Of a stretch of DNA of 53,635 nucleotides, positions 17,955-27,248 are shown piece after piece; the first letter of the stretch is position 1; the number at the start of each line of letters is the position of its first letter. Made by a program: the position numbers and the translations under genes. The notes under the pieces were generated by a model that saw only the letters and a program-made list of their open reading frames with translations, did not search any database and was not told where the DNA came from. Source of the DNA: a bacterium (GTDB lineage: Bacteria; Vulcanimicrobiota; Vulcanimicrobiia; Vulcanimicrobiales; Vulcanimicrobiaceae); the NCBI GenBank assembly GCA_021790895.1, contig JAJYFM010000005.1, positions 1 through 53,635 of the forward strand, read 5' to 3'.

Positions 17955-18104
17955 CTTGTCAGCCCGAGTAGGGCGCCTGTTGTCAGCCCGAGTAGCGGCC
18001 GAAGGCCGCGTATCGAGGGCCCGATACGTCGCGCCTCGATACGCCGCGGAGCCTGTCCTGAGCGAGCGAAGCGAGTCGAAGGGGCGGCTACTCGGCGTGA
18101 CAAG
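17955..18104. repeat. Hairpin repeat cluster in a convergent intergenic gap: forward units facing an inverted unit
   Basis: Two ttgtcagcccgagtag motifs (17955, about 17980), forward unit with CGGCC-GAA-GGCCG stem and cgtatcgagggcc, then cctcgatacg...ggctactcggcgtgacaa inverted unit; also contains gagcctgtcctgagcgagcgaagcgagtcgaagggg. Confidence 0.85.
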
Positions 18105-25291: not shown

Positions 25292-25690
25292 GTGGAATCC
25301 GGTACGAGCGAGAGCGACCGATTGGAGATCGAGAGCGAACAGAGCCGCCGCTTCGAGCGAGTCGGCGATATGCTGCTCGTTTCGTATAGTATCGGCGATG
25401 ATTTTGCCCCGGAGTTTACTGAGACCTACGATATCGCGCTCGGCGGAATGGCAATGCTCACCAACGCAGAGCTCGTCAAGGATGCACCGGTCTCCATTCA
25501 ACTCGAATTGCGCGGAGACGCAACGCCGGTACTCCGCCTTCGCGGGATCGTACGTTGGTCGCGTTTCGACGCGATGCTCCAGCGCTATCGCACCGGTATC
25601 TCTTTCCTCGAACTCGACGAAGCGACGCGCCGCCACGTGCAGCGATATATCGACACGCTCAATCTCCTCCGCGACATGGGGATGATTTAG
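25292..25690 (+). CDS. PilZ-domain protein
   Basis: EQSRRFERVGDMLLVSY...ETYDIALGGMAMLTNAELVKDAPVSIQLELRG...LRLRGIVRWSRFD...YRTGISFLELDEATRRHVQRYI. Confidence 0.8.
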   Translation: MESGTSESDRLEIESEQSRRFERVGDMLLVSYSIGDDFAPEFTETYDIALGGMAMLTNAELVKDAPVSIQLELRGDATPVLRLRGIVRWSRFDAMLQRYRTGISFLELDEATRRHVQRYIDTLNLLRDMGMI

Positions 25691-25696
25691 CGCCCG

Positions 25697-26134
25697 CGTA
25701 GCACTTGTCAGCCCGAGTAGCCGCGGAACGCGGCGTATCGAGGGCCCGCGCGGAGCACTTGTCAGCCCGAGTAGCTGCGGAACGCGGCGTATCGAGGGCC
25801 CGCGCGTAGCGCTTGTCAGCCCGAGTAGCCGCGGAACGCGGCGTATCGAGGGCCCGTGCGTAGCGCTTGTCAGCCCGAGTAGCCGCGGAACGCGGCGTAT
25901 CGAGGGCCCGCGGAGCACTTGTCAGCCCGAGTAGCCGCGGAACGCGGCGTATCGAGGGCCCGCGCGGAGCACTTGTCAGCCCGAGTAGCCGCGGAACGCG
26001 GCGTATCGAGGGCCCGCGGAGCACTTGTCAGCCCGAGTAGCCGCGGAACGCGGCGTATCGAGGGCCCGCGCGGAGCACTTGTCAGCCCGAGTAGCCGCGG
26101 AACGCGGCGTATCGAGGGCCCGATCCACTTTACA
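25697..26134 (+). repeat. Tandem array of 8 hairpin repeat units, period 52 or 54 bp
   Basis: gtcagcccgagtag at 25707, 25761, 25815, 25869, 25921, 25975, 26027, 26081; consensus cggagcacttgtcagcccgagtagccgcggaacgcggcgtatcgagggcccgcg. Confidence 0.97.
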
Positions 26135-26140
26135 GCAACG

Positions 26141-26597
26141 CCTCGATACGGCGGGCTTCGCCGCCTACTCGGCGTGACAGATACGCGCTACTCGGCGCGA
26201 CAGAATACGACCGCGCGGCGCGCGAAAGCGCCTGCAATGCACCCGACGAGCGATTAAGCGAGCGGCGAGGACCCTGACATTGCTTGTCCGAGCCGCGAGC
26301 GTCTAGCGAGGAGCGGTGCGCGCAGGCGCGATAAGCGCGCACGCCTCGATAAGGCGGCTTCGCCGCCTACTCGGCGTGACATCAGCTCGCTTCTCGGCTC
26401 GACATCGTGCAACGCCTCGATACGGCGGCTTCGCCGCCTACTCGGCGTGACATCAGCTCGCTTCTCGGCTCGACATCGTGCAACGCCTCGATACGGCGGC
26501 TTCGCCGCCTACTCGGCGTGACATCAGCGCCCTACTCGGCGTGACATCAGCGCGCTACTCGGTGTAACAGCTGCGCGCTACTCAGCGTGACATCGCG
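26141..26597 (-). repeat. Inverted-orientation copies of the same element family, including three units at 71-bp period, plus half-units
   Basis: cctcgata(c/a)ggcggcttcgccgcctactcggcgtgaca at about 26144 (variant), 26344, 26415, 26486; extra (c/g)ctactcggcgtgaca half-units up to 26592. Confidence 0.92.
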
Positions 26598-26609: not shown

Positions 26610-27248
26610 CTACCAGGCCTGAAAGTCGACCCGAAAAAGCATCCGCCCCGCAACATCGCGGCAGTCTTTCGTCGCCGGCGCATAGTCGGCGTTCTTCGCC
26701 ATCTGCAACGCGAGCACGTCGAGTGCTGCGTTTCCGCTACTACTCTGAATGGTCGCATTCTGAAAGAGACCGCGAGCATCGACAGAGACATCGATCGTAC
26801 TCGTCCCGCTCGTACGCTCTGCGCGCGTCGCCGGATCGATCGCCGGCGCGGTCGGCTCGACGAGTAGGTGTGGCGGAGTGCTCTGCGCGACGCACGCAAG
26901 CGCAGGGGTCGGAGAGGGATGCGGCTTCGGCGATGGTCGCGGTGTGACGCTCGGCGGAGGAGCGGCAACGCGCGCACCGATGCCCTTCTGCCTCGAGGCG
27001 GGCGTTACGCGCGCCGCATGGGTTTGCGGCCGAGGGGTCGGCGGCGGTGTTGGGGGCGGCGTCGGTGGCGTTGGCGTCCGCCGCGCGATCGTCATCGGCC
27101 GCGGAAGCGCCTGCACGGTAATGTGCGCGACCCCCGAGCGCAAGTCGAGTGGGTTTTTCTGCAGGAAGAGGGCTGCAACGATGTGGACGAGGAGCGATAG
27201 CGCAAGCGCCCACCAGAGATAACGGCGACCTCTTGCCCGCACGTTCAC
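26610..27248 (-). CDS. TonB-family energy transducer
   Basis: N-terminal TM (WWALALSLLVHIVAALFLQ), Pro-rich linker (TPPTPPPTPPPTPRPQ), C-terminal TonB-like domain STIDVSVDARGLFQNATIQSSSGNAALDVLALQMAKNADYAPATKDCRDVAGRMLFRVDFQ. Confidence 0.85.
   Translation of the reverse strand: MNVRARGRRYLWWALALSLLVHIVAALFLQKNPLDLRSGVAHITVQALPRPMTIARRTPTPPTPPPTPPPTPRPQTHAARVTPASRQKGIGARVAAPPPSVTPRPSPKPHPSPTPALACVAQSTPPHLLVEPTAPAIDPATRAERTSGTSTIDVSVDARGLFQNATIQSSSGNAALDVLALQMAKNADYAPATKDCRDVAGRMLFRVDFQAW

Follow-up and report, generated by a model that had tools for sequence, protein, structure and literature searches.

The window, a stretch of 53,635 nucleotides from a member of the Vulcanimicrobiaceae, carries an array of short hairpins in tandem that runs towards similar units of the opposite orientation. 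REPs are among the commonest bacterial repeats, and we know of no mover for those REPs that lack a REP-associated tyrosine transposase (RAYT). The array raises the questions of what its repeating element is and how the copies have been multiplied. A sequence-only reading had described the tandem hairpin array, which is borne out here; it did not mention that the internal loop is conserved, that the outer helix covaries, that the units lie between convergent genes or that they are distributed across phyla.

Composition of the array and of a second site

The gap between convergent PilZ and TonB genes is filled by the array (Table 1). The plus-strand units occupy 25706-26119 at spacings of 54, 54, 54, 52, 54, 52 and 54 bp, and their number, spacings and coordinates had been given correctly in the sequence-only reading. 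The 2-bp length difference had been called structured, and it is: the recurring step consists of one CG dinucleotide in the spacer (cgcgcggagcac and cgcggagcac). Hairpins are nearly identical within one array. Four inverted units follow at about 26141, 26344, 26415 and 26486, and these had been taken for inverted copies of the same element. The common frame, the 71-bp period of three of them and the half-units stand, but the hairpin and the outer pair differ from those of the plus-strand units, so that the inverted copies repeat the plus-strand element in its frame and not base by base. The proposed recent local expansion agrees with the near-identity of the units and with the species-specificity of the array at the PilZ/TonB site. 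The short inter-unit sequences are themselves repeated and there are no unique spacers, in agreement with the earlier view that the array is not a CRISPR.

Table 1 Repeats and flanking genes of the array, with a second repeat site in the window
Feature	Position	Strand	Remark
Left convergent gene, PilZ-domain protein	25292..25690	+	stop 15 nt 5' of first TGTCA
REP unit 1	25706..25745	+	TGTCA-GCC-CGAGTA-GCCGCGGAACGCGGC-GTATCGAG-GGC
REP unit 2	25760..25799	+	one stem mismatch, CTGCG/CGCGG
REP unit 3	25814..25853	+	
REP unit 4	25868..25907	+	
REP unit 5	25920..25959	+	
REP unit 6	25974..26013	+	
REP unit 7	26026..26065	+	
REP unit 8	26080..26119	+	
Inverted REP unit	26139..26179	-	hairpin GGCGGCGAAGCCCGCC, outer CG/CG; head-to-head partner of unit 8
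Half-unit	26188..26202	-	TGTCGCGCCGAGTAG
Companion repeat	26228..26329	+	conserved core and complementary arms (GCGCCTGC...GCAGGCGC); 7 cores in own genome
Inverted REP unit	26342..26381	-	frame variant TTATCGAG
Inverted REP unit	26413..26452	-	71-bp period
Inverted REP unit	26484..26523	-	71-bp period
Half-units, three	26532..26592	-	TGTnACnCnGAGTAG; 23-bp period, at 26532, 26555 and 26578
Right convergent gene, TonB C-terminal domain protein	26610..27248	-	
Second site	17957..18102	.	between convergent HD/GAF-domain and HPPK genes

The second site begins with a half-unit at 17957, continues with a full plus-strand unit from 17981 and ends with a minus-strand unit, the hairpin of which bears a nested palindrome, GTCCTGAGCG...GTCGAAGG. 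The companion repeat has the core GCGAGCGGCGAGGANCCTGAC...GTCCGAGCCGCGAGCGTCTAGCGAG, lies inside many arrays (L153, L155, L157, L191, L195, L197 and L200 besides the copy in the window) and each genome of the genus has 2-21 copies of the core. Its fold is a rod in which GA/GA internal loops recur, and its outer arms are variable while their complementarity is kept.

A variable hairpin around a fixed internal loop

Each unit of about 40 nt follows the formula TGTCA - X Y C - CGAGTA - G(stem)loop(stem')C - GTATCGAG - G Y'X', in which an unpaired TGTCA tag is followed by a variable outer helix, an internal loop of CGAGTA and GTATCGAG, and a variable inner hairpin. Two covarying helices border the internal loop: the outer one has 3 bp, with C, G, T or A at its second position, and the inner stem has 4-7 bp. 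Among 44 distinct 40-nt units, the nine proposed pairs are formed in 98.2% of the cells, and eight of the nine are changed on both sides. The covariation score is 0.759 compared with 0.191 after shuffling, none of 500 shuffles reaches the observed value, and a slide of the partner by one column abolishes the covariation. The outer XY/Y'X' pair is matched in 75 of 88 distinct units, compared with 21.7 by shuffling. The tag reads TGTCA in 76 of these 88 units and CGTCA in five; CCTCA is found in Rhodospirillaceae and Defluviicoccus.

Both strands of the internal loop are invariant in the 44-unit alignment, partly because the search pattern required them. The loop sets CGAG opposite CGAG, and tandem G-A pairs could form there. 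A GTAG motif lies inside the unit directly 5' of the inner hairpin, and its last G is paired in 44 of 44 units. Clean hairpins account for 64 of the 84 distinct interiors in the genus, and 48 of the 64 have 3-nt loops. These triloops are of the GNA type in 44 of 48 cases, nearly all closed by C-G. According to work cited in PMC5090098, the stability of DNA triloops is set by the first and third loop bases, GAA loops are stable, and GNA-type loops are unusually stable in DNA. Folding of both strands beats that of shuffled sequence, as DNA and as RNA. None of the Rfam covariance models matched; the best hit, OxyS at E=3.3, fell far short of its threshold.

The hairpin slot also accepts other sequence. 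The palindrome GTCCTGAGCG...GTCGAAGG, which is of a sequence type common in many bacteria, sits exactly inside the slot in all four resolvable cases, including the window copy at 18055; the nested palindromes are those at 18034-18102 of the window and at L167, L265 and L174. At L177, beside the TonB gene of G002, a unit is split within its hairpin loop by a sequence that starts with TGGACTTTACCCAGTTTCGTGGACGCC and resembles the end of an insertion sequence.

Distribution and kinship with known REP families

The frame was searched as CGAGTAGN{4,30}GTATCGAGG, with the pattern read backwards as control. In the 2.1-Mb MAG that contains the window (84% complete, 154 contigs), 123 exact matches stand against none backwards, which is not chance and supplies the genome-wide count that the sequence-only reading had called for. 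The lengths of the arrays in this MAG are approximate because many of them stop at contig ends and one contains Ns. These same features are what would be expected of an assembly artefact, which we consider hardly credible, since the same frame, arrays and placement recur in ten separate genomes and the stems differ at orthologous sites. All ten genomes of the genus carry the frame in 27-276 copies each, and elsewhere in the phylum 50 genomes from further genera, families and classes gave one single match. The records DAHUYY and JABEUW, assigned to Candidatus Eremiobacterota (now under Vulcanimicrobiota at NCBI), have the frame with the same TGTCA units.

A scan of GTDB species genomes yielded at least 118 stretches with the frame. 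Among the matches listed, carriers include Defluviicoccus, other Rhodospirillaceae, Sphingomonas, Naasia, Gordonia, Peribacteria, Anaerolineae, Calditrichia, Bacteroidetes and Nitrospinota, among others. Outside Eremiobacterota, 68 of the 162 matches listed form a perfectly paired stem of 4 bp or longer, compared with 6.4 by shuffling; most of these 68 also have an outer helix of at least four pairs (G-T allowed), and the loops are again mostly cGNAg. The short frame GAGTAGN{4,30}GTATCGA occurs in 9 to 253 copies per genome in 37 genomes reached through frame loci (four are Eremiobacterota or likely so), with control sums of 0 to 8; as these genomes were picked for having a match, the figures inform on copy number and not on prevalence. 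In Sphingomonas and an uncultured bacterium (L046, L062 and L102), frames are nested as TGAGTAG[...CGAGTAG-hairpin-GTATCGAGG...]GTATCGAAG, and stacking of the internal loop is thus possible, as is T-A in place of its C-G pair.

A transposase of the RAYT type resident in the genome could have mobilised the units, as GTAG immediately precedes the inner hairpin, which is also its place in GTAG REPs, and Y1_Tnp genes are present in 15 of the 37 frame-bearing genomes elsewhere. However, the remaining 22 gave no match to Y1_Tnp, and PF01797 (Y1_Tnp) matches none of the ten genomes of the genus, including the one that contains the window, although control genomes do match. The RAYT for which a search elsewhere in the genome had been suggested is not among its Pfam matches, and mobilisation by a resident RAYT, largely refuted for the genus, is very unlikely. 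An IS200/IS605 MITE would likewise need a partner Y1 transposase, in contrast to the lack of Y1_Tnp in the genus.

REPs in the broad sense are palindromes of 20-40 bp repeated in high copy, extragenic and placed chiefly between genes that converge or run in one direction. The units belong here, being palindromic, about 40 nt long, present in 123 copies per 2.1 Mb, extragenic and located mostly in convergent gaps. In the text of Di Nocera et al. 2013 (PMC3733652), REPs of the CGTC super-family are described as having the tag CGTC, often TGTC or CCTC, forming head-to-head dimers, lying at gene 3' ends and having no transposase. The array units resemble them in the unpaired CGTC/TGTC/CCTC tag at one end of a short palindrome, in their extragenic position 3' of ORFs, in their head-to-head dimers and in lacking a dedicated transposase. 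As far as that text describes them, however, CGTC REPs have a continuous stem of 8-9 bp starting with A-T and T-A, whereas the palindrome of the array units is split by the fixed internal loop; their loops have 4-5 nt, compared with mostly 3 nt here; and they seldom cluster, whereas tandem arrays with hypervariable stems are common here. They also have a 3-nt CCA tail (the text gives only 3-bp tails), which none of the array units listed has. The dRS3 repeats of Neisseria (CGTC-1 in PMC3733652) share tagged short palindromes in large clusters, but neither an internal loop of this kind nor an exchangeable inner hairpin is described for them in the text.

GTAG-tagged REPs and the REP-BIME of E. 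coli have in common with the array units the GTAG just 5' of a GC-rich hairpin, inverted pairs and interspersed intergenic copies. Their GTAG is terminal and unpaired, whereas here it is internal with its last G paired. Unlike in GTAG REPs, the hairpin is followed by the 8-nt GTATCGAG strand and enclosed by the outer helix, and the genus lacks the Y1 transposase with which GTAG REPs are associated. Because the units fit neither the GTAG definition nor the CGTC definition as described in the text of PMC3733652, we class them as a new REP variant that belongs to neither super-family. A word search found no published description of the family, and a sequence search of the literature returned chance or primer matches only.

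More tentatively, the units may belong to a third cross-phylum REP superfamily, in which the invariant internal loop GAGTA/GTATCGA would be a recognition module, the hairpin slot would be exchanged as a cassette, and a conserved non-Y1 bacterial factor would keep and move the units; we regard this as possible, with the balance against it. Stems that vary freely around one fixed internal loop would make the recognised part separable from the unrecognised part, and the presence in many phyla offers a direct way to search for a factor that would read the loop.

Placement, turnover and proposed mode of spread

In stretches of four genomes, with genes called by a purpose-written simple codon-usage caller, units are found in 41 of 59 convergent, 20 of 141 tandem and 5 of 79 divergent gaps, and none lies inside a called gene. 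Because the stretches were chosen around the elements, the enrichment in convergent gaps over the others (41/59 versus 25/220, p=3.6e-18) is a comparison between gap types and not an absolute frequency. Among 30 mixed arrays, 25 are head-to-head (plus then minus, with the TGTCA ends outside), two are tail-to-tail and three are other; tandem clusters are common alongside the head-to-head pairs. Single-orientation arrays in tandem gaps are sense in seven cases and antisense in two, which is too few to decide. An initial rule that units are always sense to the upstream gene was dropped when more genomes revealed both orientations in tandem gaps. Head-to-head pairing and convergent gaps are the robust placement rule.

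Paired hairpins between convergent genes could act as BIME-like DNA sites that relieve supercoiling through putative binding of gyrase or a nucleoid protein. The convergent bias and the head-to-head pairs fit such a role, and E. coli REPs are stated to be gyrase targets in the text of PMC3733652. However, across phyla the bias is weaker and only a trend (convergent 9/27, tandem 18/81, divergent 3/39; p=0.11), and we consider this role improbable.

Nearly all clusters lie close 3' of stop codons, at a median of 45 nt in convergent gaps and often at 2-16 nt. This placement would also suit a 3'-UTR element whose transcribed units halt 3'-5' exonucleases or have a protein bound to their internal loop and so stabilise or end mRNA, a role that Di Nocera et al. 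2013 argue for REPs in the text of PMC3733652. The folding of both strands and the possible tandem G-A pairs of the internal loop are compatible with it. Among single-mismatch stems, G-T outnumbers C-A by 6 to 1, which mildly favours an RNA role; scarcity of G-T pairs, once considered as an argument against RNA, was dropped for this reason. However, the prevalent GNA triloops are of a type reported as stable in DNA in work cited in PMC5090098, and orientations are mixed in tandem gaps. The units share with intrinsic terminators a GC-rich hairpin just 3' of stop codons, but a T-run of at least four within 14 nt follows only 9 of 298 units, the longest T-run being three or shorter in the other 289, so that nearly all units are not intrinsic terminators. 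Behind one stop codon of G007, the repeats follow a distinct hairpin that has a T-run. A primary role in RNA is, on this evidence, rather unlikely. At L216 (G000 C23), directly 3' of a stop codon, the hairpin TGTCA-CGCCGAGC-TACCGC-TAT-GCGGTG-GCTCGGCG-TTTT resembles a REP unit that has become an intrinsic terminator.

Orthologous sites keep the frame and often the outer pair, and their inner hairpins vary in sequence and length. At the TonB 3' end, a unit lies in the same place in eight species with outer CG/CG in seven of them, and the inner hairpin is unlike between most species (GGCGGCGAAGCCGCC, GGTTGCGAAGCAACC, GGCGCTGCAAGCGCC, GGGCGCTTCAGCGCCC, GGCGCCCTCGGGCGCC, GGTGGCGGAGCCACC). At L165, all seven unit-bearing species have outer CC/GG, and the inner hairpin takes four forms, one of which is common to four species. 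The plus-strand array beside PilZ is not in the complete gaps of G004, G005, G006 and G008, and the gaps of G001 and G007 contain a different array, partly decayed.

We favour, with some reserve, the reading that the array arose when a REP-type element of a new structural class expanded locally, and that its copies would have been spread and homogenised by DNA-level copying and not by a resident RAYT. The TGTCA strand would fold as single-stranded DNA during replication or repair, with the fixed internal loop as the recognised part and the inner hairpin as exchangeable filling. Arrays may grow by slippage or unequal recombination, and new sites may be reached by copying or recombination between units, with no RAYT as the driver in the genus. 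Template switching, which is reported to give rise to hairpins and to preserve them (PMC8794818), or gene conversion between copies could keep the palindromes perfect while swapping stems, and the copies that exchange stems would have 6-9 nt frame arms in common. Insertion is probably tolerated behind stop codons, so that copies would build up there, and transcribed copies may act secondarily as mRNA 3'-end hairpins.

Mobility and function are here inferred, dispersal being read from the distribution of copies; neither transposition events nor target duplications nor excisions were observed. Third-codon identity between species is only 0.62-0.90, so that slow compensatory change in place is possible over longer distances and at some sites; stems common to several species at some sites, such as the one found in four species at L165, also speak against universal exchange. 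The changes in stem length and the difference between G004 and G005 at the TonB site (0.87 identity) fit replacement better than stepwise change. The swapped hairpins at orthologous sites offer a natural test of whether palindromes stay perfect by selection or by template switching. Truncated or fused units are found at L159, L162 and L170, for example with GTATCGAGGGGACCCCGAGTAG junctions at L159, and G001 has a 31-32 bp period of TGTCATCCCGAGTAGGTTGCGAAGCCACCAA; these units suggest decaying or recombining tandem arrays.
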